Shown here in pieces: positions 1-61,340 of a stretch of 64,000 nt of DNA. The DNA comes from Gemmata massiliana (lineage in GTDB: Bacteria > Planctomycetota > Planctomycetia > Gemmatales > Gemmataceae), in contig HG799462.1 of NCBI GenBank assembly GCA_000531095.1, forward strand, positions 1,558,894 to 1,622,893, written 5' to 3'. Below the pieces are notes generated by a model, which did no database searches, was not told the origin of the DNA, and was given only the letters and a program-made list of their open reading frames with translations. The position numbers and the translations under genes were made by a program. Position 1 is the stretch's first letter, and the number at the start of each line of letters is the position of its first letter.

Positions 1-143
1 TGCGCGCGTTTATGCGCGTCCCGTGACCCGGCTCGTTCCCAACCGAACTCATCAGTGCCGATGTCGATCGTCGCCCGAAGCCGAGGGGTTCTTCCCAACG
101 GCTTTTCGGACGCTCGCCGAGGTTCCGATGTGGAGAGCCGCGT

Positions 144-2117
144 ATGTCAGAATCAACAGTTGGCGCCCCTGAACCGAGAAGCCGCTTCGGCGGCCTCCGG
201 CAAGTCCTCATCACCTTGTTTGCGCGCCTCAGGTTCGTTGCAATCCTGGGCGTCATCGGGCTCGTGATCGTTAAGTGGGATCTGCTCAACGCCCACTACG
301 AGAAGTGGACACGGTCCGCGCACGAAGCTGATCACGGAACCTCCGACACCGAGTACTTCTGCCCGATGCACCCGCAGATCGTGCGGGACACCGGCAAAGA
401 GAAGTGCCCGATCTGCTTTATGCCGCTCTCAAAGCGAAAGAAGGGCGAGGGGACGGACGAGGCCCTGCCCGCCGGTGTTGTGAGTCGGGTGCAGCTCTCG
501 CCGTACCGGATCGTACTCGCGGGGGTAAAAACGACGCCGGTCAGCTACCTCGCGCTCACAAAGGAGATCACGACGGTCGGCACCGTCGAGTTCGACGAGC
601 GGGGGCTAAAGCACGTCGCCGCGCGCGTCAAAGGCCGGATCGACAAGCTCGGCGTGAACCAGACAGGTCAGATGGTCCACAAGGGGGACGAGCTCGCTAC
701 GCTCTACAGCCCGGACCTCGTTGTTACCGTACAGAACATGCTCGACGCCCGCCGTGCAGGGAACAAGGAACTCGAGCGGATCTCCCGCGAACGGCTCGCC
801 CTGTGGGGCATCGAAGGGGATCAGATCGAGGAAATGCTGAAGACCGGAAAGCCCGTCACGCAGGTTTCCGTCCGCTCGCCGATCGACGGGCACGTGATCC
901 GGAAGTACCAGACCGAGGGCCGGTACGTGGACGAGGGGACGCCGCTCTACGACGTCGCCGACCTGAACACGATCTGGATCCAGGCGCAGGTGTACGAAGA
1001 GGACTTGGCGTTTCTTCCGGCAGAGAGCCACGAGCTCTCGAAAGACGACCGCCTGCCGGTGAAGGCCACCACGCGCGCCTACCCGGGCGAGACGTTCGCG
1101 GGCACCCTGTCGTTTGTCTACCCGCACGTCGACCAGGAGACGCGCACCCTCACCGTCCGCTTCGAGCTCGCAAACAAAGACGGCAGACTAAAGCCCGGCA
1201 TGACGTCGACGGTGAAGCTCGCCCTCCCGCCCGAGAAGCTCTCTCGCGTCGGAAGCGGGAGCGCGCGGCTGAAGCTCGAAGGGGCCCGCGTGCTTGCGGT
1301 TCCCGAGGGGAGCGTCATCGACACCGGCTCGCTGAAGCTCGTCTACCGGGAGGAGTCGCCGGGCGTGTTCGAAGGCGTGCAGGTGAATTTAGGCCCGCGG
1401 ATGGCGACGCCGGAAGGGGCCCCGTACTTCCCGGTGTTAGCGGGACTCGAGGCCGGCCAGACGGTCGTCACCGCGGGATCGTTTCTCATCGATGCGGAGA
1501 CGAGACTCAACCCGGCCGCAGGCTCGATCTACATCGGTGGGAGCGGCAGCGGGCCGAAGGGGGGCGCAACGGTCCGGCCGTCGACGCCCGAGGACCCGGA
1601 GCAGAAGGTCAGCGCCAACTTGGCGAAGCTCGCCGCGGAAGACAGGCCGCTTGCCGAGGCTCAAGGCACCTGCCCGGTGCTCACCGGGAGCGCCCTCGGC
1701 TCTATGGGAAAGCCCGTCAAGGTGACGCTCGAGGGGAAGCCGGTCTTTCTCTGCTGTAGCGGATGCGAGGGGAAAGCGACGGCCGAGCCGGCCAAGATCC
1801 TCGCCCGCGTGGAAGAGCTCAAAGCCGGAAAGAAGCCGAAGCTCGAAGAGCGGACCCCGCTCGACAAGGAGGAGGCGGAGGTCAGGACCCAGCTCGCGAA
1901 GCTGTCCCCGGAAGACCGCGCGCTTGCTGTAAAGCAGCGGTTCTGTCCCGTAACCGACGAGCGCCTCGGGTCGATGGGCGTGCCACTAAAGATCATGGCC
2001 GACGGTGCCCCGGTCTTCATCTGCTGCAAGAGCTGTAAGGAGGACGTCCTCGCAAAGCCGGCGGTGATGCGCGCGAAGGTCCAGGGGTTCACGAGGGGCG
2101 AGGCGCCGAAGAAGTAG
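144..2117 (+). CDS. cusB: RND efflux periplasmic adaptor, CusB-like, with extra metal-binding domains
   Basis: Membrane-fusion subunit that should link the CusA-like permease downstream to an outer-membrane channel for Cu(I)/Ag(I) export. A membrane anchor lies near residues 25-42. A heavy-metal-binding domain follows at about 71-95 (CPMHP...CPICFMPL). The adaptor core (barrel-sandwich and beta-barrel) spans about 110-460, with SPIDGHVI marking the lipoyl-like half. Unusually, the C-terminus carries two copies of a short CC module, at about 510-541 (CPVLTG...LCCSGC) and 601-632 (CPVTDE...ICCKSC), separated by charged linkers. The same module occurs alone in lipoproteins at 35.0 and 35.4 kb. 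At 657 residues it is much longer than CusB of E. coli (about 400). The start has a GGAGAG element just upstream. It is first in a cusB-cusF-cusA run with 22-40 bp gaps. Metal specificity is inferred. Confidence 0.9.
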   Translation: MSESTVGAPEPRSRFGGLRQVLITLFARLRFVAILGVIGLVIVKWDLLNAHYEKWTRSAHEADHGTSDTEYFCPMHPQIVRDTGKEKCPICFMPLSKRKKGEGTDEALPAGVVSRVQLSPYRIVLAGVKTTPVSYLALTKEITTVGTVEFDERGLKHVAARVKGRIDKLGVNQTGQMVHKGDELATLYSPDLVVTVQNMLDARRAGNKELERISRERLALWGIEGDQIEEMLKTGKPVTQVSVRSPIDGHVIRKYQTEGRYVDEGTPLYDVADLNTIWIQAQVYEEDLAFLPAESHELSKDDRLPVKATTRAYPGETFAGTLSFVYPHVDQETRTLTVRFELANKDGRLKPGMTSTVKLALPPEKLSRVGSGSARLKLEGARVLAVPEGSVIDTGSLKLVYREESPGVFEGVQVNLGPRMATPEGAPYFPVLAGLEAGQTVVTAGSFLIDAETRLNPAAGSIYIGGSGSGPKGGATVRPSTPEDPEQKVSANLAKLAAEDRPLAEAQGTCPVLTGSALGSMGKPVKVTLEGKPVFLCCSGCEGKATAEPAKILARVEELKAGKKPKLEERTPLDKEEAEVRTQLAKLSPEDRALAVKQRFCPVTDERLGSMGVPLKIMADGAPVFICCKSCKEDVLAKPAVMRAKVQGFTRGEAPKK

Positions 2118-30232: not shown

Positions 30233-31717
30233 TCAGCGGGGCTTCGGCACCGAGTTGATGTGGCCGGGAGGCGTCGGGTCGCGCGGCGCGGTCAGGCCGC
30301 CGGTGAGGAGCAGTCCGCGGAGCTCGACTTCCGCCCGCCGGAGTTCGTAGAGCGACCGGGTGTAGTCCTCGCTCAGTTGGTACACGGTCCGCTGTGCCAC
30401 GAGTACCTGGGGCCACGCCGACCGCCGCTCTTTGTAACTCTTCAGGTACAGTTCGTACGCTTTCTCGGCGGTGGGAAGCGTCTCCTTCCGCCACGTCTCG
30501 ACCTCGGCGCGGGCGGTCTCGTATCGGCTGAAGGCGTCGGCAAACCGCCGGCGGAGGTCAAGTTCGACCCGATCCACCTCGGCCGTCGCGCGGGCAAGAT
30601 CCGCCTGCGCTTGGCGGATGGTTCCCTGGTTGCGATCCCAGACCGGAAGGCGGACCGAAAGCGCGACCTCGGCCGTTGGATTCCGGGTGTCGTAGTTGTA
30701 GCCCGTGCCGCCGCGGACCGTGACGTTCGGGATCGGCTCCCGCCGCTCGCGCTGGAGTTGAATCTGGTCTCGCTTGACCTCGATGCGGGCCATGGCGAGT
30801 TCGGGGCTTTCTTCCAAGAGCTTTGCCAGCGCCTCGTCTTTACCAAGCGGGAGGCCTTCCGGTTCGAGCGCGCCGGAAACCGGTTGGAGGGCGAGGGTCG
30901 GGACGCCGACCACCGCAACGAGCCGCTCCCAGTCGCGGCGCAGCCGGGTCTCGGCGTTCCTGAGCGCGACGGTGGCGCGCTGCACCTCGACCTTCGCCTG
31001 GAGGAGGTCCGGCTCGTTCGCCTGCCCGACGTTGACGAGCTGCTCGGTGGTCTTAAAGCCCTCCTCGGCGTTCAACTTCAGTCGCCGGTGATTCTCGACG
31101 GACCGCTGGGCCGCGAGCACCTCGAAGTAGCCCTCGGCGATGGCGTTCGCCACCCGGAGCCGCTGGGCGCACGCCTGGACTTCCGCTGCGTACGCTTCCT
31201 GTTCGTACTTCATCCGGCTGAGGCGGAGCTTTCCTCCGGTCACGATCTCCTGCTGGAGGTAGAACCACGTCCACTCGCCGGCCCTTCGGTCGGCCCCGAT
31301 CTGCTCGCCGGTGATGCCGACGGTGGGGTTGAGCGGGAGGCCGGCCTGGAGCGCTTTTCCGCGCGCGGCGTCGATGTAAGCAGCCGCTTGGGCGAGGGTC
31401 GGGTTGTGCCGGAGAGCAAGTTGTTCGAGTTCCGCGATGCCGAGTACGTGCGGGGACGGAACCGGACCGGCGACCGGCCCGGTCGGCGAGGCTTTCGGGG
31501 CGACCGGGGTGCTTGGGACCTGGTGTTGTGGCACCGGTTGGGTGGCCGCGATCGGAACGATCGGCGCAGGCCGCAGTGAGCGGAGCGCCGGGGTAGGTGA
31601 GTAGAGAGTCGGCCGCATCGGCAACGGCGGGTCAGCCGCCGGCGACATGGTCACCAGAAGACACGTCAGTACCGGTACGGCCAGGCGGGCTGCCGTCCGG
31701 TGCGATGGATTGTGCAT
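30233..31717 (-). CDS. TolC-family outer-membrane efflux protein
   Basis: Outer-membrane channel, 494 residues from the ATG at 31717 (an upstream in-frame ATG at 31795 adds 26 residues without a signal-like sequence). Signal peptide LAVPVLTCLLVTMSPA is followed by a Pro-rich linker and then TolC repeats with FYLQQEIVTGGKLRLSR and VRLPVWDRNQG. The same two motifs occur in the TolC at 48.6 kb (ASQEIVTGGKLKLSR, MPVPVWNRNQG), so these two are closer to each other than to the other two TolC proteins here. It is the nearest channel to the pump at 36.5-42.4 kb, though on the opposite strand. Confidence 0.88.
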   Translation of the reverse strand: MHNPSHRTAARLAVPVLTCLLVTMSPAADPPLPMRPTLYSPTPALRSLRPAPIVPIAATQPVPQHQVPSTPVAPKASPTGPVAGPVPSPHVLGIAELEQLALRHNPTLAQAAAYIDAARGKALQAGLPLNPTVGITGEQIGADRRAGEWTWFYLQQEIVTGGKLRLSRMKYEQEAYAAEVQACAQRLRVANAIAEGYFEVLAAQRSVENHRRLKLNAEEGFKTTEQLVNVGQANEPDLLQAKVEVQRATVALRNAETRLRRDWERLVAVVGVPTLALQPVSGALEPEGLPLGKDEALAKLLEESPELAMARIEVKRDQIQLQRERREPIPNVTVRGGTGYNYDTRNPTAEVALSVRLPVWDRNQGTIRQAQADLARATAEVDRVELDLRRRFADAFSRYETARAEVETWRKETLPTAEKAYELYLKSYKERRSAWPQVLVAQRTVYQLSEDYTRSLYELRRAEVELRGLLLTGGLTAPRDPTPPGHINSVPKPR

Positions 31718-31974
31718 CCTGCACCTGGTTGTGAGTTGTCTACGGTGCCCGCCAGCACAGAGATTACTCGCTTCATTCGGCACGGCCCCCGCCACGGCGT
31801 CTGTGTGAGCACATCAATTCGGCTCTTCGGGGCGTGCGCCTCGAAAGGGTGTGAGGGGTGGTCCGGATTTGCGGGCTGGGTAAGGCGATTGAGGCATGGC
31901 GATTGCTGCCAATCCTTCAGCAACCGGCTGGCGGGCACGGTTCCGTTCGGTGGAGACACCGGAGGAGGTGCCCT

Positions 31975-32313
31975 ATGGCTCACGTCGAACACCAATCCTG
32001 CATCAAGGCCTGCGAAGAGTGCGCGGAAGCGTGCGAACACTGCGCAGCGGCCTGCCTCGGCGAGAGTGACGTCAAGATGATGGCGGAGTGCATCCGCCTC
32101 GACCGCGACTGCGCCGAGCTCTGCTGGCTCGCAGCAGCGTTCATGAGCCGCGGGTCTCAGTTCGCGGCCGCACTCTGCGGCGTCTGCGCGGACGTCTGCG
32201 AGGCGTGCGGCGCTGAGTGCGCAAAGCACAAGCACGACCACTGCCAGCGGTGCGCCGAGTCCTGCCGCCGGTGCGCCGCCGAGTGCCGCAAAATGGCCGG
32301 CGTCTCGGCTTAA
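31975..32313 (+). CDS. Four-helix-bundle copper-storage protein, cytosolic (Csp3/DUF326-like)
   Basis: 112 residues with 19 Cys, mostly in CxxxC and CxxC spacings along predicted helices (CIKACEECAEACEHC, CGVCADVCEACGAEC, CQRCAESCRRCAAEC). This is the pattern of Csp proteins, whose four-helix core is lined with Cys that bind many Cu(I) ions. No signal peptide, so the protein should be cytosolic like Csp3. GGAGGAGGTG lies just before the ATG. The next gene encodes a tandem DUF305 protein, a pairing seen again at 55.8-57.3 kb. Two other Csp-type genes are at 35998 and 55752. Confidence 0.9.
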   Translation: MAHVEHQSCIKACEECAEACEHCAAACLGESDVKMMAECIRLDRDCAELCWLAAAFMSRGSQFAAALCGVCADVCEACGAECAKHKHDHCQRCAESCRRCAAECRKMAGVSA

Positions 32314-33953: not shown

Positions 33954-34817
33954 ATGGTTCGCAGGCTCATTCTCGGTGCCGGGGTCGGGCTGGTTGCCGC
34001 AGCCGGCCTGTTCTCCCTCGGGTGCGGCTCGTCCACTCCGCCGTCCGCGCCCACGGTCGCCGAGCAGGACAAAGGTAAATCGCCGGCTGCTCCTGGGGAC
34101 GAGGCTCACGGGCACAAGCCTGGAGCGCACGGGGGAACCCTCGTCTCGCTCGGCCGGGACAGCTATCACGCGGAAGCCGTTTTCGAGAAGAACGGCACGG
34201 TCCGCCTCTACATGCTCGGGAAGGACGAGGCCCGCATTCAGGAGGTCGAGGTTCAGGAGCTCACCGCCTACCTCACGCCGGAGGGTGGGACCGAGGCCGA
34301 CAAGATGACCTTCCGCGCGGAGCCGCAGCCGGGCGATGCGAAGGGAAAGACCTCTCAGTTCGTCGCCACGCTCCCGAAGGATCTCATCGGGAAGAAAGTG
34401 CAGGTCACCGTTAACAACATCAACGTGAACGGCGAGCGGTTCCGTATCGCCTTCTCGAACGCGGCTGCCGCCGGCGACCACGCCGGGGCGGAAATGCCGG
34501 TGAAGAAGGGGAGTGAAGAGGAGCAGGCGCTCTTTCTCACCCCCGGTGGCCTCTACACCGCGGCCGACATCAAGACGAACGGGAACACGGTACCGACGGT
34601 GAAATACAAGGGCATCCGCGCGCAGCACGACGACAACCCGAAGGCGGGCGAGAAGATCTGCCCCATCTCAAAGACCAAGGCGAACCCGAAGTTCACCTGG
34701 GTCGTCGGCGGGAAAACCTACGAGTTCTGTTGCATCCCGTGCATCGAGGAGTTCGTGGCGCTCGCCAAGGAGAAGCCGGGCGAGATCAAAGACCCGAAGG
34801 ACTACGTGAAGCAGTGA
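33954..34817 (+). CDS. Lipoprotein with C-terminal CC metal-binding module
   Basis: 287 residues. A lipoprotein signal (GLVAAAGLFSLGC, Cys about 23) is followed by an Ala/Pro linker, HGHKPGAHGG, a beta-rich domain (YHAEAVFEKNGTVRLYML) and a C-terminal module: CPISKTKANP (about residue 234), then GGKTYEFCCIPCIEEFV (about 250-266). It is a paralogue of the 24751 protein, and both follow a Cys-rich exported protein. The FCC-PCI segment resembles YHS/TRASH metal sites. Likely function: periplasmic soft-metal binding in front of the pump genes. The exact partner is unknown. Confidence 0.72.
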   Translation: MVRRLILGAGVGLVAAAGLFSLGCGSSTPPSAPTVAEQDKGKSPAAPGDEAHGHKPGAHGGTLVSLGRDSYHAEAVFEKNGTVRLYMLGKDEARIQEVEVQELTAYLTPEGGTEADKMTFRAEPQPGDAKGKTSQFVATLPKDLIGKKVQVTVNNINVNGERFRIAFSNAAAAGDHAGAEMPVKKGSEEEQALFLTPGGLYTAADIKTNGNTVPTVKYKGIRAQHDDNPKAGEKICPISKTKANPKFTWVVGGKTYEFCCIPCIEEFVALAKEKPGEIKDPKDYVKQ

Positions 34818-36450: not shown

Positions 36451-36542
36451 AGTCGTGCCAGGTGAAGTAATCCGCCGGGTCGGTCCTCCACGCGACCGTC
36501 CCGGCCACTCGCACCATGAGCTTGATCGCGGAGGTGATTCAC

Positions 36543-38795
36543 ATGAGTTCGTCTCTAAACGACGCCTCACCCCGCCGCCTCAGGCGGCCCGCGGCGCTCG
36601 CAGCCATTTGTCTTGTCACCGTCGGTGTCACCGTGCTCCTCGCCCACGAGGGGCATGCCCCGCTCCCGACGAAGGGAGTTCAGGTGGACGTAGCCCGCGG
36701 CCACCTGCTCCTCACCCCGGCGGCGCGGGACAGCCTCGCCGTCACCACGGCGGAGGTCGAGGTGAGGCCGGTCGAGGGCCGCATCCTTGCGTACGCGACA
36801 ATCGACCTGCCGTGGACGCACCACGGGTTTGCCACCTCCCGCCTCCCCGGGCGGATAGTCAGGGTACACGTCTCGCCCGGACAAACGGTCCGAGCGGACG
36901 AGGTGGTGGCTGAGGTGCGGAGCCTCGAGCTCGACACCCTCCAGCTTGAAGCGTTGAACGCCCAGACCGAAGCGTCTCTGAACGAGAAGCTCGTGCGGGA
37001 GCTCCGAACGAGCGTCGAGTCTGGGGCGGTCGCGGGCCAGGTTCTCATTGACGCGGAGTCGAAGCTCTCGCAGGTCAGAAACGCCCTGGTAGTTGCCCGC
37101 AGCAAGTGGCTCGCCCTCGGACTCCGCACCGACTCCTTTGACGCGCTCCTTAAGCGCGGAACTGCCGACCCCGGCTTGACCCTTCCGGTGCGGGCGCCGG
37201 TGGGCGGAACGATCATCCACGCGGAGCTCACGGCGGGAAAGGTGGTCGAGCCGACCGAGCACCTGGCCGAGGTCGCGGACCACTCCACGGTGTGGGTGCG
37301 GGTGGGGGTGCTGGAAAAGGATCTCGCGAGGGTCGCGGTCGGCACCCCGGTAGAGGTCTCGCTCGTCGCGCACCCGGGGGAGGTGTTCCGGACAACGGTT
37401 TCGGCGGTCGCGCCGTACCTCGACCCGACGACGCATCTGGCGTCCGTCTGGGCCGAGTTGAAGAACCCGGCCGGCGCGGAGCCGCGGGTCCTCCCGGGGA
37501 TGACCGGGCGGGCGGACGTGGTGCTCCTCGGCGAGAAGCCGCGCGCGACGGTGCCGGTCGCGGCCGTGGCCCGGGAGGGCGTCGACCGGTTCGTGTTCGT
37601 TGAGGAGGCGAGTGCTGCCGGTGCGTCCGAGTACCGAAAAAAGTCCGTTGCCCTCGGGCGGAGGAGCGGCGACCGCGTCGAACTCCTCGCAGGGGAGGTG
37701 TACCCGGGGGACCGGGTGGTGGTCCGCGGGTCACACGAACTCAGCGGCCTTTTCGCGCCCGGGGCTCTTCGGCTCGGGCCCGAGGCAGAGCGATCGATCG
37801 GCCTTCGGGTGGAGCCCGCCGGGCCGGGTGCGGTGGACGAGACGGTCACGCTGGACGGCGCGATCGACTTGCCTCCCGCCGACCGCGGGTCGGCCGCGTC
37901 ACCGCTCTCGGGCGTCATCGCCTCCATCCGCACCGACCGGGGCCGGACGGTGAAGGCCGGAGACGTCCTCGCCGAAGTAATCAGCCCGGAACTTCTCACG
38001 CTGCAACTGGATCTTGTCCGGGCGAGTCTCGACCTTCAGCTCGAGGGAGACACGCTCGCCCGGATCAAGGATCTCGCAGCCGTCCCCCAGCGCCGGGTGT
38101 GGGAGACGGAGAGCCGCGTGGCGGCGCTCAAGTCGCAGGTGGAAACACTCCGGAGGAAACTCGAGACGGTGGGTCTTGTTTCGTCCGACATCGACCGCGT
38201 CGTCCAGAAGAAGGAGGTGCTGTCGGCCGTCCCGGTGCGGTCGCCGGTGTCCGGGGTGGTCGTCACGTTCGACAAGGCGTTAGGTCAGGCGGTGGCCGCG
38301 CAAGAGGTGCTCTTTTCCGTTCACAACCAGGCGCGGCCGTGGATCATGGGGAACGTGTCCGAGCGGGACGTGAGGCGGGTGCGCGTGGGCCAAGCGGTCC
38401 GGGCGCGACTCATCTCCGCCCCCGAGACGGTACTTGCGGGGCGGGTGACCCGCAGCGGCCGGACGGTCGGGGCGGAAAGCCGATCGCTTGCCGCGTGGGT
38501 GGAGCTTGACGCCGGCGTGAGCAAGGCACTCATCCACGGGCAGCTCGCGACTCTTACGGTCGTAACCGCCACTCGCACCGCGGCGGTCACCGTGCCGGTC
38601 GGCGCTGTGACCGGGGAGCCGGGCGCTCAGTTTGTGTTCGTCCGCCGCCCGGACGGAGTGTTCGAGCGGCGGGCGGTTGAGACGGCAACGTCAGACGATC
38701 GCCTCGTTGAAGTCGTCCGCGGGCTCGCGGCAGGAGAGCAGGTGGCGGTTCAGGGCGTAACCGAACTCGTCACCGGGTTCGCCTCGCTCCGGTAA
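36543..38795 (+). CDS. Double-length RND efflux adaptor (two fused MFP units)
   Basis: 750 residues from the ATG at 36543 (GGAGGTG upstream; an upstream in-frame ATG at 36516 lacks one). After a membrane anchor and AHEGHAPLP, residues about 50-420 form one complete adaptor: LPGRIVRVHVSPGQTV, a helical hairpin, and VRAPVGGTIIHAELTAGKVV. Residues about 430-750 form a second: PLSGVIASIRTDRGRTV, a hairpin, and VRSPVSGVVVTFDKALGQAV. Each has lipoyl halves, hairpin, barrel and membrane-proximal region. Adaptors normally assemble as six copies or three dimers around a trimeric pump, so a covalent dimer would fix that pairing. It is 14 bp before the permease gene. Confidence 0.87.
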   Translation: MSSSLNDASPRRLRRPAALAAICLVTVGVTVLLAHEGHAPLPTKGVQVDVARGHLLLTPAARDSLAVTTAEVEVRPVEGRILAYATIDLPWTHHGFATSRLPGRIVRVHVSPGQTVRADEVVAEVRSLELDTLQLEALNAQTEASLNEKLVRELRTSVESGAVAGQVLIDAESKLSQVRNALVVARSKWLALGLRTDSFDALLKRGTADPGLTLPVRAPVGGTIIHAELTAGKVVEPTEHLAEVADHSTVWVRVGVLEKDLARVAVGTPVEVSLVAHPGEVFRTTVSAVAPYLDPTTHLASVWAELKNPAGAEPRVLPGMTGRADVVLLGEKPRATVPVAAVAREGVDRFVFVEEASAAGASEYRKKSVALGRRSGDRVELLAGEVYPGDRVVVRGSHELSGLFAPGALRLGPEAERSIGLRVEPAGPGAVDETVTLDGAIDLPPADRGSAASPLSGVIASIRTDRGRTVKAGDVLAEVISPELLTLQLDLVRASLDLQLEGDTLARIKDLAAVPQRRVWETESRVAALKSQVETLRRKLETVGLVSSDIDRVVQKKEVLSAVPVRSPVSGVVVTFDKALGQAVAAQEVLFSVHNQARPWIMGNVSERDVRRVRVGQAVRARLISAPETVLAGRVTRSGRTVGAESRSLAAWVELDAGVSKALIHGQLATLTVVTATRTAAVTVPVGAVTGEPGAQFVFVRRPDGVFERRAVETATSDDRLVEVVRGLAAGEQVAVQGVTELVTGFASLR

Positions 38796-45140: not shown

Positions 45141-47446
45141 ATGAGCGCGACAAACATCGAACCCGCGAGCCGCGTAGACATGCCAGTAGTCGGCATGCAC
45201 TGCGCGGCTTGCGCCGTCCGCATTGAGGGGGCGCTCGGCCAGGCCCCCGGCGTGTCAAAGGCCGCTGTCAACTTCGCCACCGGCCGGGCGACTGTCGAGT
45301 ATGACCCGGCTTCTACCGCCCCGGACGCTCTTCGGGACGTCGTGCGTGGGGCCGGGTACGACGCAGTACTTCCGACTCCGGGCCACCACGGCGGCGGTGT
45401 GTCGGACGCCGAGGAGGCGGCCAGGGAGGCGGACTTCCAGCGAACGCGGCTCAAGTTCCTCGTCGCCGCCGCCCTCACTGTTCCCGTCGCCGTTATCGCG
45501 ATGGCGGGGCACCTCATCCCGTCGCTTGCGCCGGTGCTCGACTTTCCGGGACGTGCGTGGGTCGAGCTCGCGCTCACCACCCCGGTCCTCTTCTGGGCCG
45601 GGCGCGAGTTTTTCACGGGCGCATGGGCCGCGGCCCGGCACCGCGCTGCGGACATGAACACACTGGTCGCGATCGGGACACTCTCGGCCTACGCCTACAG
45701 CGTCGTGGCGGTCGTTGCCCCGGAGTGGCTCACCGTGGGCGGCGCGGGTGAGCATGCCGGGCACGTCGCGTCAGCGCCGGTCGGAGTGTACTTCGAGGTG
45801 GCGGCGGTGATCGTGACACTCATCCTCCTCGGGCGGCTCCTCGAAGCCCGCGCACGGAGCCGAACGGGTGGCGCAATCCGGGCGCTCATCGGGTTATCGC
45901 CGAAAATCGCCCGTGTCGAGCGGGACGGCACAGAGGCCGATGTGCCGCTCGCAGACGTTCGCGTAGGCGATGTCGTGCGGGTGCGGCCCGGTGAGAAGGT
46001 GCCCGTTGACGGCACGGTCATTGACGGTTCGTCGGCGGTGGACGAGAGCATGCTCACCGGCGAGCCACTCCCGGTGACGAAAGGGCCCGGCGATCCGGTT
46101 ATCGGGGCTACGGTGAACACGACCGGCTCCTTCCGGATGACGGCGACGAAGGTCGGGGCCGACACCGTTCTCCAGCAGATCGTCCGCCTCGTGCAGGACG
46201 CCCAAGGGTCGAAGGCTCCGATTCAGAAGCTCGCAGACACCGTAGTCGGCTACTTCGTCCCGGCGGTCCTGTGCCTTGCGATCCTCACCTTCGTCGCCTG
46301 GTTTAACCTCGCTCCGCCCGAGACGCGCCTCACCTTGGCACTTCTCACCTTTGTCTCGGTGCTCATCATCGCGTGCCCATGTGCGCTCGGGCTTGCAACA
46401 CCGACCGCGGTCATGGTCGGCACCGGCCGGGGGGCGCAGACGGGGATTCTGATCAAAGGCGGTGAGCCGCTCGAAGCGGCCGGGCGGCTGACCACCGTCG
46501 TCCTCGACAAGACGGGCACGGTAACGGAGGGCAAGCCCGCGGTGACCGAGGTCGTGCCCGCGGGGCTTCCGGCCGACGAGCTCGTGCGACTTGCGGCGGC
46601 GGCCGAGCAAGGTCGGAGCACCCACTCGCCCGCGCCGTCATCGAGGCCGCCCGCACCCGCGGCCTTCACGTTCCCAACGCAGACTCGTTTGAAGCCGTCC
46701 CCGGTCACGGTTTGGTGGCGCGAGTCGAGGGCCGGGTGGTGCTGGTCGGGAACGCCCGGCTGCTCACGGCACGCGGCGTCGCGTTCGACGCGGCTGCGGC
46801 CGACCGAACCGTGAAAGCGGGAAAGACTATCCTGCTCGTCGCCGTCGACGGCGCGTACGCGGGCCTGCTCGCCGTGGCGGACCCGATCAAGGTGACCTCG
46901 AAGGCGGCGGTCGGGAAGATCCGCGCGATGGGCCTCGAGGTGGTTCTCCTCACCGGGGACAACCGGGGCACGGCGGAGGCGGTGGCACGTGAAGTCGGCA
47001 TCGATCACGTCGTGGCCGAAGTGCTCCCCGAGGGCAAGGTGGCCGAGGTGCGAAAACTCCGTGCGGCGGGCCGGGTTGTCGCGATGGTCGGGGACGGCAT
47101 CAACGACGCTCCTGCGCTCGCCGAAGCCGACGTCGGAATCGCAATGGGGACGGGAACGGACGTAGCGATCGAGGCGGCTGACATCACGCTGGTCAAAGGC
47201 GACCTGTCCGGTGTGGCCTCCTCCATCGCGCTCTCACGGGCGACCATGCGGACCATCCGGCAGAACTTGGTCTTCGCGTTCGGGTACAACGTGCTCGGCA
47301 TCCCGATCGCTGCCGGGGTCCTGTATCCGCTCACCGGGTGGCTGCTCAGCCCGATCCTCGCGTCGGCTGCGATGGCGCTCTCGTCGGTCAGCGTGGTGGC
47401 GAACGCCCTCCGGCTCGGCCGTATCGATCTGAAGAGGGGAGGCTGA
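45141..47446 (+). pseudogene. copA: Copper-exporting P1B-type ATPase CopA with a single-base frameshift
   Basis: Cu(I)-ATPase about 768 residues long when joined. Frame 1 (45141 on) has an HMA domain ([12 protein letters not shown]), TMs, a TGEP actuator loop, the CPC helix ([13 protein letters not shown]) and DKTGT. At 46613-46614 the sequence reads GGTCGGAGCACCCA where GGTTCGGAGCACCCA would encode the conserved SEHPL of the nucleotide-binding domain. One T appears missing. The other frame then continues without interruption: [25 protein letters not shown], and the last helices with YN...P and [12 protein letters not shown], ending at 47446. All Cu(I)-ATPase signatures are present across the break. 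It is either inactivated recently or a sequencing error. No slippery heptamer is seen at the break. Confidence 0.88.
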
Positions 47447-58035: not shown

Positions 58036-58202
58036 CCTGAAAGCACCTCCACGGCTTCGCTGCTCGGGTGACACTTGTCGCCCCGGCACCGAGTGCTTCG
58101 GCCTTTCCGCCAATTAACTATCGTTCGGTCACTGCTTCTCGGTGTGGCGCCTTCGATCCGGCCCGCTTCGGCCATCGACGGTTCGTAAGAGGAGTGTCGA
58201 GA

Positions 58203-59648
58203 GTGAGTCCACAAACGGAGACTCCCGAACTGCGCCCGGCAGCGGGCGAGTCGGTTGAGCCGGAGCGGAAGGCTCGCCCGCAGCAGGGCGTCGGCCGCCG
58301 CATGCTTGGGCTCGCGTCGAGCGCGGCTGTCATCGCCCTCCTCGCCGGTGCCGCCTACTGGGGCCATCACACCGGGTGGACCTTCACGGCTCCCGGTCAC
58401 GGAGCGGGAAAGAACGACGACCCGTCCTCGACTAACCGGATTGCTTCCGTCCGGTTCGGACAAGCCGTTCCGACCGCGGCTCGTCTTCCCAGCTCCCTCC
58501 AGCGTTCCGCCGCGATCGAATTCGAGTCTTCGGAGGCAGTTTCTGCGGCCGGGATCGACATCACCCCGGCTTGGCGTGAACCGATGACGGAGGCAGTCAC
58601 GGCGAACGGCGAGCTCGGGTTCGACCCGGCCCGCGTTGCGCGACTCTCGCCGAGGTCTCCCGGCCCCGCCTGGCGGGTGCTGAAGGCGATGGGCGACAAG
58701 GTTCGTGCCGGCGAAGTCATGGCCCTCATCGACGCTGGCGAAGTGGGGAAGGCAAAAGCCGAATATCAGCAGGCCCTCGTCCAGGTGCGGCTCAAGCGGC
58801 AGGTGTTCGAGAATCTGAAAGGGGTAGGACAAGCCGCTTCGGCCCAACGGGTCAGAGAGGCTGAAGCCGCGTTCAAAGATGCGGAGGTCAAGCTCCTCGG
58901 TGCCGAGCAGGCGCTAGCGAACCTTGGCCTTCCGGTTAGAGCATCGGAAGTCGCGTCCCTCTCTCCAGACGAGGTCGCTCGGCGCATCCGGCTCCTCGGG
59001 GTTTCGGAAGTGGTCGAGGAGGGGACGTCTGTGACCGCAAACCTCCTCCCAGTTCGGGCTCCGTTTGATGGAGTCGTCCTTAACGCTGATGTCGTCGCGG
59101 GCGAGGTTGTCAACGTCACAACGGTTCTCTTTCTCGTCGTTGATCCGAGCCAACTCTGGCTCACCCTCCACGTCAGTCCCGGGAATGCCCGAAGGGTCAC
59201 GGTCGGGCGCGAGGTGCGCTTCCGTCCAGATGGGCTGAATGAGGACGCCGTCGGGAAAGTCACCTGGATTGGTACGGCTGCCGACGAAGCGACCCGAACC
59301 GTACCCGTTCGTGTCGAGCTCGCAAACAAGACAGGGCAACTCAGGGCATCAACCTTCGGGAAGGGTCGAGTCATCCTGCGGGAGGAAAGGGATGCTCTCC
59401 TTGTCCCGCAAGACGCGGTTCAGACGATCGACGGAACCCCCATCGTGTTCGTCCGCGACCCGGAGTTTCTGAAAGCAGGCGGCAAAAAAGCTTTCTCTGT
59501 TCGCCCCGTCCGGGTGGGTGCAAACGACTCCCAAAACAGAGAGATCATTTCGGGCCTCGAGTCCGGAGAAGTCGTCGCAACTAAGGGGAGCGGTCTTCTC
59601 CTCGACGAATTCAAGCGATCGCTTCCTGCGCGGCAGGCGGGCGAGTGA
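58203..59648 (+). CDS. RND efflux adaptor, first of two consecutive (CzcB-like)
   Basis: 481 residues from GTG 58203 with GGAG upstream. Cytosolic N-terminus, membrane anchor (LGLASSAAVIALLAGAAYWG), then a CzcB-type adaptor: barrel-sandwich halves near ARVARLSPRSPGPAWRVLKA and VRAPFDGVVLNADVVAGEVV, a helical hairpin (AKAEYQQALVQVRLKRQVFE), and a beta-barrel/membrane-proximal region. No Cys-rich N-terminal module, unlike the next gene. It is 43 bp before the second adaptor. Confidence 0.85.
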   Translation: MSPQTETPELRPAAGESVEPERKARPQQGVGRRMLGLASSAAVIALLAGAAYWGHHTGWTFTAPGHGAGKNDDPSSTNRIASVRFGQAVPTAARLPSSLQRSAAIEFESSEAVSAAGIDITPAWREPMTEAVTANGELGFDPARVARLSPRSPGPAWRVLKAMGDKVRAGEVMALIDAGEVGKAKAEYQQALVQVRLKRQVFENLKGVGQAASAQRVREAEAAFKDAEVKLLGAEQALANLGLPVRASEVASLSPDEVARRIRLLGVSEVVEEGTSVTANLLPVRAPFDGVVLNADVVAGEVVNVTTVLFLVVDPSQLWLTLHVSPGNARRVTVGREVRFRPDGLNEDAVGKVTWIGTAADEATRTVPVRVELANKTGQLRASTFGKGRVILREERDALLVPQDAVQTIDGTPIVFVRDPEFLKAGGKKAFSVRPVRVGANDSQNREIISGLESGEVVATKGSGLLLDEFKRSLPARQAGE

Positions 59649-59690
59649 CACGACCTAAAGGACCTGACTCAAATTCGTGAGCCGAAACCC

Positions 59691-61340
59691 GTGAACCAAA
59701 CACAACCGAACATCGGCGTCCTCGAGCAGCCTGTACCACCGGCTACTCCCAGCGCTCCGGAACCACCGGCTGTCCGTCCGAGCGTGCTCGGCCGGGTCAT
59801 GAAACTCTTCGGGCATGTCATCCCGATGGCGCTCGCCATCGGATGTGTCGTCGGGCTTGTCGCCCTCGGGCGCGGAACCGGCTGGAGCCTCCCGAAGTTC
59901 TCGGCTCTGACCGAAGGCGAGGGGCTCGAGAAGGAGCGTGACTGGTGCGCCGAGCACGGTGTTCCGGAGTCCGAGTGCGTTGAGTGTAAGCCCGAGCTCC
60001 TCCCCAGAGCGAAGCGGGTCAAGTGGTGTAAGGAGTTCGGGGTTCACGAGTGCCCGCTCTGCTATCCGGCAATCGCAGAAACGAAGACGCCACCCACCGT
60101 CACGAGTGAGGACTGGGAGCGGGCCCGGCGCGCGGTCGGCTTTGCCCCGCGCGTTGAGAACAACCCAAAATGTAAGCTCCACGAGCGACGCATTCAGCTC
60201 GTCTCGGCCGAGGTCGTCGATCGGCTCGGCATCGTGTCCCGTCCCGTCGTAACGGGGCCGGTCGTCGAGGGGGTTACAGCTCCGGGTGAGACCGGGTACG
60301 CCCCGACGAGTGTCGCGAGGCTCTCTGCGCGCGTTCCTGGGGCCGTGTTCCGGGTCGAAAGGCAGGTCGGCGACCGGATCCGCAGGGGCGACGTGCTTGC
60401 CCTCATCGACGCAGCCGAGGTCGGCAGGGTCAAGTCCGAGTTTCAGCAGGCTCTGACGCAGGTAGATCTGAAAGGCCAGACGCTAAAGGGGCTGAAGGAG
60501 CTCTCGGGTGGTGCCGTTTCCGGGCAGAGCGTCATGGATGCGGAAGCCGCGTTCGAAGAATCCCGGGTCAGGCTTCTCACCGCCGAGCAGTCACTCGCAA
60601 ACCTCGGGCTCACGATTCGCGCCACCGATGTCCGAGGTCTCACTCCGACCGACCTCGCGAAGCGAATGCAGTTCCTGGGAATTCCGGACGCCCTCCGTCG
60701 GGAGCTCGACGGCAAGACCGGGTCAAGCAACCTCCTTCCGGTCACCTCGCCCGTAGACGGTGAGGTGGTGTCGAGGTCTGTCGCGGCCGGCGAAGCCGCA
60801 GACGCCGGGAAGGTGCTGTTTGTCGTCGCCGACACGAGCCGTCTCTGGCTCACGCTCCGCGTCAGGATCGAGGACGCTCCGAAGCTAAAACCCGGGCAGC
60901 CCGTCCGCTTCACTCACAGTGGGCATGAGGAAGGTGACGCCGGATCGATCGTGTGGGTCAGTCCTTCGGCGGACGAGAAAACGCGGACGGTTGCCGTCAG
61001 GGTCGATCTTCCGAACCGAGACGGGTCACACCGGGCAAACACGTTTGGGACCGCTCGGGTGGTGCTCCGCGAGGAGAAGAACGCCGTCGTGGTCCCCAGT
61101 GAGGCGGTCCACTGGGAGGGGGACTGCAACGTGGTCTTTGTGCGGGACAGGAACTTCGAGGCTCCGGGCGCTCCAAAGGTGTTTCACGTCCGCACCGTCC
61201 GGCCAGGTGCTCAAGACGTAGCGCAGGCAGGCCCCGTCACAGAGATTGCAGCGGGGGTGCTTCCCGGCGAGTGGGTGGCAACGACAAACAGCGGCATCCT
61301 CCGCTCAGAGCTCTTGAAGAACAACCTCGGAGCAGGGTGA
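59691..61340 (+). CDS. RND efflux adaptor, second of two, with Cys-rich N-terminal module
   Basis: 549 residues from GTG 59691. One membrane helix (VIPMALAIGCVVGLVALGRG) is followed by a Cys module at about 86-125 (DWCAEHGVPESECVEC, WCKEFGVHECPLC) of a kind common in planctomycete CzcB-type adaptors, then the adaptor core: SVARLSARVPGAVFRVERQV, the hairpin, and VTSPVDGEVVSRSVAAGEAA. The core is a close paralogue of the previous protein (both have a VxALIDA-EVGxxK-E-QQAL stretch). Two adaptors with one permease suggest either a mixed adaptor ring or alternative partners. A hairpin lies between this gene and the permease. Confidence 0.85.
   Translation: MNQTQPNIGVLEQPVPPATPSAPEPPAVRPSVLGRVMKLFGHVIPMALAIGCVVGLVALGRGTGWSLPKFSALTEGEGLEKERDWCAEHGVPESECVECKPELLPRAKRVKWCKEFGVHECPLCYPAIAETKTPPTVTSEDWERARRAVGFAPRVENNPKCKLHERRIQLVSAEVVDRLGIVSRPVVTGPVVEGVTAPGETGYAPTSVARLSARVPGAVFRVERQVGDRIRRGDVLALIDAAEVGRVKSEFQQALTQVDLKGQTLKGLKELSGGAVSGQSVMDAEAAFEESRVRLLTAEQSLANLGLTIRATDVRGLTPTDLAKRMQFLGIPDALRRELDGKTGSSNLLPVTSPVDGEVVSRSVAAGEAADAGKVLFVVADTSRLWLTLRVRIEDAPKLKPGQPVRFTHSGHEEGDAGSIVWVSPSADEKTRTVAVRVDLPNRDGSHRANTFGTARVVLREEKNAVVVPSEAVHWEGDCNVVFVRDRNFEAPGAPKVFHVRTVRPGAQDVAQAGPVTEIAAGVLPGEWVATTNSGILRSELLKNNLGAG

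Follow-up and report, generated by a model that had tools for sequence, protein, structure and literature searches.

A conserved tandem periplasmic adaptor beside a heavy-metal RND permease in Gemmata massiliana, probably a naturally fused adaptor dimer

The window analysed here is a stretch of 64,000 nucleotides from Gemmata massiliana (contig HG799462.1), and one of its genes (36543-38795, forward strand) encodes a tandem periplasmic adaptor next to a heavy-metal permease of the resistance-nodulation-division (RND) type. Translation gives a single open frame of 750 residues with zero internal stops. The start codon, ATG 36543, follows a Shine-Dalgarno-like GGAGGTG (36530-36536), and an alternative in-frame ATG lies 27 bases 5' of it at 36516. 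Two stretches of the protein are matched by the Pfam family HlyD_D23 (E = 2.5e-61 for the whole protein) and likewise two by the NCBIfam family RND_mfp, TIGR01730 (208.8 bits; cut-off 94.9), and a BLASTP comparison of residues 1-407 with residues 408-750 yields 28% identity over 351 columns (E = 9e-36). An AlphaFold2 model built on a 60-sequence alignment has a mean predicted local distance difference test (pLDDT) score of 89.3 and contains two complete adaptors: lipoyl, hairpin, barrel and membrane-proximal parts are all present twice, once per half. The hairpin helices comprise residues 128-159 and 165-191 in the N-terminal half (N-half), and residues 482-508 and 516-543 in the C-terminal half (C-half). 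Among solved adaptors in the PDB, the N-half matches the folds of MacA (residues 60-403, Z = 14.9) and CusB (51-412, Z = 13.8), and the C-half those of BesA (406-743, Z = 14.9) and MacA (421-738, Z = 13.7). The initial annotation had described two complete membrane fusion protein (MFP) units in one polypeptide, each with lipoyl, hairpin and barrel elements. Profiles, half-to-half alignment and model all agree with this, and the adaptor fold of the second half, on which the proposal depended, is present; only the limits of the units, given as 50-420 and 430-750, move slightly, to about 46-404 and 408-750. The model gives the C-half neither a signal nor an anchor helix, and a separately translated C-half would therefore escape the usual export. 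A sequence match in the PDB that is absent from the fold list, the 695-residue chain of 6vej with at least two names, is presumably an engineered TriA-TriB fusion. A PADLOC search with the tandem adaptor matched nothing at E ≤ 0.01.

The same architecture recurs in other genomes. A genome scan gave 78 loci, of which 70 are of the tandem type (L042-L111) and 8 carry single adaptors; going by their titles, 68 of the tandem-type loci were assigned to Planctomycetota and L110 to Zixiibacteriota. The fusion is whole and in one frame at 66 of the 70 loci, contig ends truncate three more (L059, L101, L105), and in L103 the frame is disrupted and contains a stop. G. massiliana itself has a second full-length copy (57% identity) and one partial copy. 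At E ≤ 1e-80, the family yielded matches in 27 of 95 genomes and the phylum in 6 of 392, with the own genome included in both counts. At E ≤ 1e-45, tandem adaptors were found in 2 of 80 genomes of the phylum of L110, and in 0 of 194 and 0 of 299 genomes of the phyla of L113 and L114, where matches spanned one half only; no more than 13, 5 and 3 candidates, respectively, were scored in each genome of these three scans, so that cases could be missed. One plasmid record matched at E ≤ 1e-20, covering half of the tandem adaptor.

The two halves are conserved separately. Within one protein they share a median identity of 26% (68 tandem proteins), and the median identity to the window counterpart is 44% for N-halves and 42% for C-halves. 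Conservation found largely in the N-half affects H226 (93%), H240 (96%), H398 (99%) and W91 (96%), while that found largely in the C-half affects R448 (94%), R620 (94%), R622 (93%) and R637 (91%), each over 68 rows; the C-half carries the higher net charge in 57 of the 68 proteins. A contiguous H[EDA]GH follows the anchor helix in 67 of 68, and the stretch containing it, HEGHAPLPTKG in the window, may be a metal-binding tail. The halves also have features in common: a tryptophan is found at W303 in 28/32 N-halves and at W652 in 30/32 C-halves, a position held by arginine in 41/50 single adaptors, and the hairpin region has a median length of 91.5 residues in N-halves, 88 in C-halves and 89 in single adaptors. 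These patterns would fit separate roles of the halves, without naming the roles.

Immediately downstream of the adaptor gene lies the permease gene (Table 1), so that the earlier picture of two diverged halves on one chain beside an RND permease holds. A permease gene of the window type is the next gene downstream in 64 of 66 tandem loci, with a gap of at most 231 bp in 63; the exceptions are L080, which ends 363 bases downstream, and L070, which has no qualifying downstream match within 10 kb. The window permease carries the motifs HAEGVN and HRLDH. Among 60 permeases (the window and 59 relatives), the first H..DH match reads HR[LIM]DH in 59, window included, and E625 is kept in all 60, as is a histidine at the position equivalent to M672 of Escherichia coli CusA. 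HAEGVN occurs in 56 of the 60, again including the window, and HAEGVH solely in L089 and L090; asparagine stands in place of the third histidine of HAEGVH in 58 of 60 tandem-linked permeases.

Table 1. Positions and supporting evidence of the tandem adaptor, its parts and the associated genes in the window.
Feature	Coordinates	Strand	Evidence
Tandem periplasmic adaptor gene, 750 aa	36543..38795	+	Frame; HlyD_D23; RND_mfp; GGAGGTG 36530-36536
N-terminal anchor/signal helix, residues 16-34, sole one in the protein	36588..36644	+	Model, low confidence there
HEGHAPLPTKG after the anchor helix	36645..36677	+	H35, G37, H38, G45 kept in 68/68
First adaptor unit (N-half), residues 46-407	36678..37763	+	Half-versus-half BLASTP, model, fold matches
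N-half helical hairpin, residues 128-191	36924..37115	+	Model
Second adaptor unit (C-half), residues 408-750; linker of a few residues	37764..38792	+	BLASTP, model, fold matches
C-half helical hairpin, residues 482-543	37986..38171	+	Model
CusA/CzcA-family heavy-metal RND permease, 1190 aa	38810..42382	+	TIGR00914, 705.9 bits (cut-off 701.45)
Lipoprotein-like; CrdA/CopC-like N-domain (weak fold match), C-terminal TRASH-like CCxPC	33954..34817	+	Pfam TRASH/YHS below cut-off
Outer-membrane factor (TolC family), about 5 kb upstream, candidate partner	30233..31795	-	PF02321 OEP, E 2.2e-41

Phylogenetic analysis was performed with three trees. A bootstrapped tree of 37 rows (taken from 94), with 12 tandem proteins and a simpler model, places the N-halves in one clade (99/95) and the C-halves in one clade (89/93, not starred); a single clade of all halves is neither rejected nor proven in it (approximately unbiased test, p-AU = 0.45). 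Two larger quick trees also recover the N-halves as one clade (support 96 and 98). The first contains 32 tandem proteins (31 of the 68, and L141) and 50 single adaptors, and omits the singles L112, L117, L149, L155 and that of window 27-2114, whose gene is included as L007. The second, of 94 rows, was built from 25 tandem proteins, 32 single adaptors and 12 adaptors found with NieA-like permeases, and omits 18 singles and 7 tandem proteins of the first. In this 94-row tree the single adaptor L113 falls inside the C-halves and L112 beside the halves, and later loss of one half is therefore also possible. On the whole the trees support a single old origin of the fusion without settling it, and the bootstrapped tree is compatible with a duplication inside the gene as well as with the joining of two close paralogues. 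An origin from two unrelated types of adaptor, the case described for DSY0927, is not favoured, because the halves share features that are absent from most singles and because the one-clade arrangement is not rejected. The separate N- and C-clades and the different residues kept in each are consistent with the distinct roles that had been suggested for the two halves.

In 58 of the 66 tandem loci, a homologue of the lipoprotein at 33954-34817 lies upstream of the adaptor gene in the same orientation. An alignment with 37 of these 58 relatives (38 rows) shows C24, C236, C259, C260 and C263 to be invariant. The model of the lipoprotein (mean pLDDT 81) gave a template modelling (TM) score of 0.60, by target length, with the copper protein CrdA of Helicobacter (9ll2; E = 1.2e-3), and the best row was a carbohydrate-binding module (5t7a; E = 1.1e-3). 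As nothing in the PDB was matched at E ≤ 0.001, the likeness to CrdA is a hint only, and the lipoprotein is a possible periplasmic metal carrier. A search for homology to the N-terminal extension of NieB-like adaptors was negative (best hmmsearch E = 0.33; hhalign probability 2.3).

Other genes of the window form a copper setting: DUF326 (31858-32313), DUF305, HMA and a heavy-metal P-ATPase frame are present, and a repressor is nearest to RicR, at 71.2 bits and under the cut-off of 175. A Hymenobacter plasmid relative also neighbours DUF305 and four-helix copper-binding genes. The P-ATPase frame (45141-46814, forward strand) matches its family to about residue 495 with a partial profile and ends at residue 557; it may be frame-shifted or truncated. 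Further adaptor frames occur in the window. Two single adaptor frames on the forward strand, 58041-59645 and 59649-61337 (535 and 563 aa, stop to stop), are 3 bases apart and pair together in both larger quick trees (96, starred); they might serve a TriAB-like pump whose two adaptors are encoded separately. An adaptor-like frame of 696 aa (27-2114, forward strand; L007) has a close relative, L008, elsewhere in the genome.

Taken together, we consider it likely, with a probability of roughly 0.7, that the gene product is an adaptor dimer fused by nature and working with a heavy-metal RND exporter, which in G. massiliana would most likely carry copper. The tandem architecture, the two folds (as models), the linkage to the permease and the separate conservation of each half are established, and the reading as a covalent adaptor dimer is well supported; the arrangement in the ring, what each half does and which metal is exported are inferred. 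The single N-terminal helix would anchor the chain to the inner membrane, and the chain would carry two complete adaptors side by side, so that three two-unit chains would supply six adaptor places around the permease trimer and the outer-membrane channel. The short junction between the two membrane-proximal parts in the model would suit neighbours in a ring. The N-half, with its HEGH tail and extra conserved histidines, might receive the metal, from the neighbouring TRASH-like lipoprotein or from the permease, while the arginine-rich C-half might occupy the alternate ring place. More tentatively, and with somewhat less than even odds, a Planctomycetota/Zixiibacteriota lineage of metal RND exporters may have a genetically locked asymmetric adaptor ring, in which N-units and C-units take fixed places and the CrdA/TRASH-like lipoprotein replaces CusF. 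If this is true, nature has built the 3:(3+3):3 pump that is otherwise argued from two-adaptor pumps and engineered fusions.

Several observations weigh against this reading or parts of it. As to copper, the window permease lacks the Cu(I) methionine triad, with G, S and H at the positions of E. coli CusA M573, M623 and M672, residues that we checked in the E. coli locus (L120) and take to be the three-methionine metal site. Cu(I) export through a CusA-type triad is thus ruled out for this permease. Its motif class was, moreover, proposed for nickel, so that the substrate signals conflict. The copper neighbours recur only partly beside tandem genes: among the 66 loci, with flanks of unequal length, P-ATPase was counted in 14, DUF326 in 8 and 7, HMA in 7, DUF305 in 2 and the repressor in 0. 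Similarly, a similar outer-membrane factor is found in the fetched flanks of only 16 of the 66. We conclude that the gene setting points to copper for the window, where it makes copper the most likely substrate, and leaves the metal of the family undecided. As to the fusion, related permeases outside Planctomycetota and Zixiibacteriota adjoin a single adaptor in 14 of 14 loci examined, so that this type of pump does not require it. The C-halves do not form one clade in the two larger quick trees, where they needed two changes. Finally, the relatives are mostly metagenome bins, and several lie in a shared genome or are near-identical (L096-L098), which means that counts over them are not independent.

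The 14 single-adaptor loci (L112, L113, L162 and L186-L196) were drawn from 9 of 12 genomes and 2 of 117 plasmid records, with L112, L113 and L162 added, and the pairing of adaptor and permease was judged from adjacency alone. Their permeases have HAEGVH in 10 of 14, HAESVN in L186 and no HAE motif in L112, L162 (a partial permease) and L193. Their adaptors mostly have a long N-terminal stretch ahead of the adaptor, as read from stop-to-stop frames. In L187-L196, the adaptor frames of NieA-like permeases start with HGGEDHG- or HEGHDHG-like stretches and an extra domain; in the Hymenobacter locus L186 (2565-3194), a similar-looking protein is encoded by a separate gene just upstream. The single adaptors L113 9251-10690 and L162 1051-2085 seemingly lack a hairpin, as the alignment places about 15 residues between their lipoyl halves. 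The 642-aa single adaptor frame L112 2184-4109 matches the hairpin section of the profile more than once, which suggests a hairpin of more than the usual length.

Of the other explanations, the one that survives best, though we regard it as unlikely, is that one half is the working adaptor and the other a remnant or a regulatory domain outside the ring. The single adaptors beside related permeases fit this, and the hairpin tip, where adaptors carry a docking motif for the outer-membrane factor, may do so too: the serine in the tip column of this motif is present in 2/32 N-halves and 10/32 C-halves, compared with 14/50 singles (15 of them gapped). Nevertheless, the fold is complete and the hairpin full-length in both halves, and many residues of each are conserved throughout the family. 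Less probable still is cleavage of the chain after export into two adaptors, which would give a TriA/TriB-like pair from one gene. Residues 401-410 at the junction do have the lowest pLDDT (76) of all ten-residue blocks from residue 51 on, but the junction spans few residues, some of them conserved (L400 99%, F404 100%, G407 88%), and cleavage would leave the C-half without its only anchor, though protease sites were not searched for. Equally improbable is a stacking of the two units along the pump axis into a longer tube. Both units have hairpins, but nothing speaks for it directly, and the linker of a few residues between the membrane-proximal parts in the model would favour a side-by-side placement. 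That a sequencing error or, as the initial annotation considered, a missed stop has joined two genes can be dismissed because the fusion is conserved: against the one broken frame (L103, 1 of 70 loci) stand 66 intact loci, three others merely cut by contig ends, the 57%-identical full-length copy in the same genome, and an uninterrupted frame with no ATG at the junction in the window (an in-frame ATG lies within 15 codons of the junction in 8 of 66 relatives, GTG and TTG not counted).

The naturally fused adaptor dimer has to be seen against what is known of other pumps. Planctomycetota are bacteria with an outer membrane, and what appears to be new here is a conserved fusion with both halves complete, linked to a metal RND permease, in such bacteria. 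Among the best matches in the open-licence literature, consulted by titles and the openings of abstracts, none was found to describe adaptor fusion in metal RND pumps or in Planctomycetota; the fusion suggests that Planctomycetota have a recurrent metal export system for which no description was found in that literature. RND pumps are thought to place six adaptors on the trimer (PMC13328181, PMC4446572), and how the adaptor ring assigns functions is called not clear in a 2026 review (PMC13328181). A natural fused pair has a fixed stoichiometry and halves that can be mutated separately and form sequence families of their own, so that position-specific roles become readable from conservation and directly testable.

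Within the metal pumps, NieA of Cupriavidus neocaledonicus has HAEGVH and HRLDH and was proposed, with no experiment, to represent a heavy-metal efflux (HME) "class 6" for nickel (PMC7060636). NieBA and the window permease have HAEGV- and HRLDH in common, but the window has HAEGVN instead of HAEGVH. E. coli CusCFBA resembles the window in the order of adaptor and permease, in the CusB fold and in a permease about 31% identical over the aligned residues; it differs in its single CusB and in having the methionine triad where the window permease has G/S/H. The covalent adaptor dimer as an idea is not new, and precedents exist in AcrA tandems, TriABC and DSY0927. Tandem-fusion AcrA constructs are reported to be functional (PMC4446572, PMC13328181), and are covalently joined adaptors like the window protein, although engineered from one adaptor. 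TriABC-OpmH of Pseudomonas aeruginosa has two adaptors that are 36% identical and reported to have unequal roles (PMC13328181, PMC4338810). Both systems thus have two diverged adaptors per RND permease (36% identity there, 28% here), but TriA and TriB come from separate genes and serve a triclosan pump, whereas the window has one gene and a metal RND permease. DSY0927 of Desulfitobacterium hafniense is a natural fused MFP that has been cited as evidence for MFP dimers with specific roles (PMC4446572, PMC4338810), and like the window protein it has two MFPs on one natural chain. Its N-half, however, lacks a coiled coil and its partner is an ABC (ATP-binding cassette) transporter, whereas the window protein has a hairpin in the N-half (residues 128-191) and a metal RND partner; unlike in DSY0927, the window halves lie near each other in the trees and both have hairpins.
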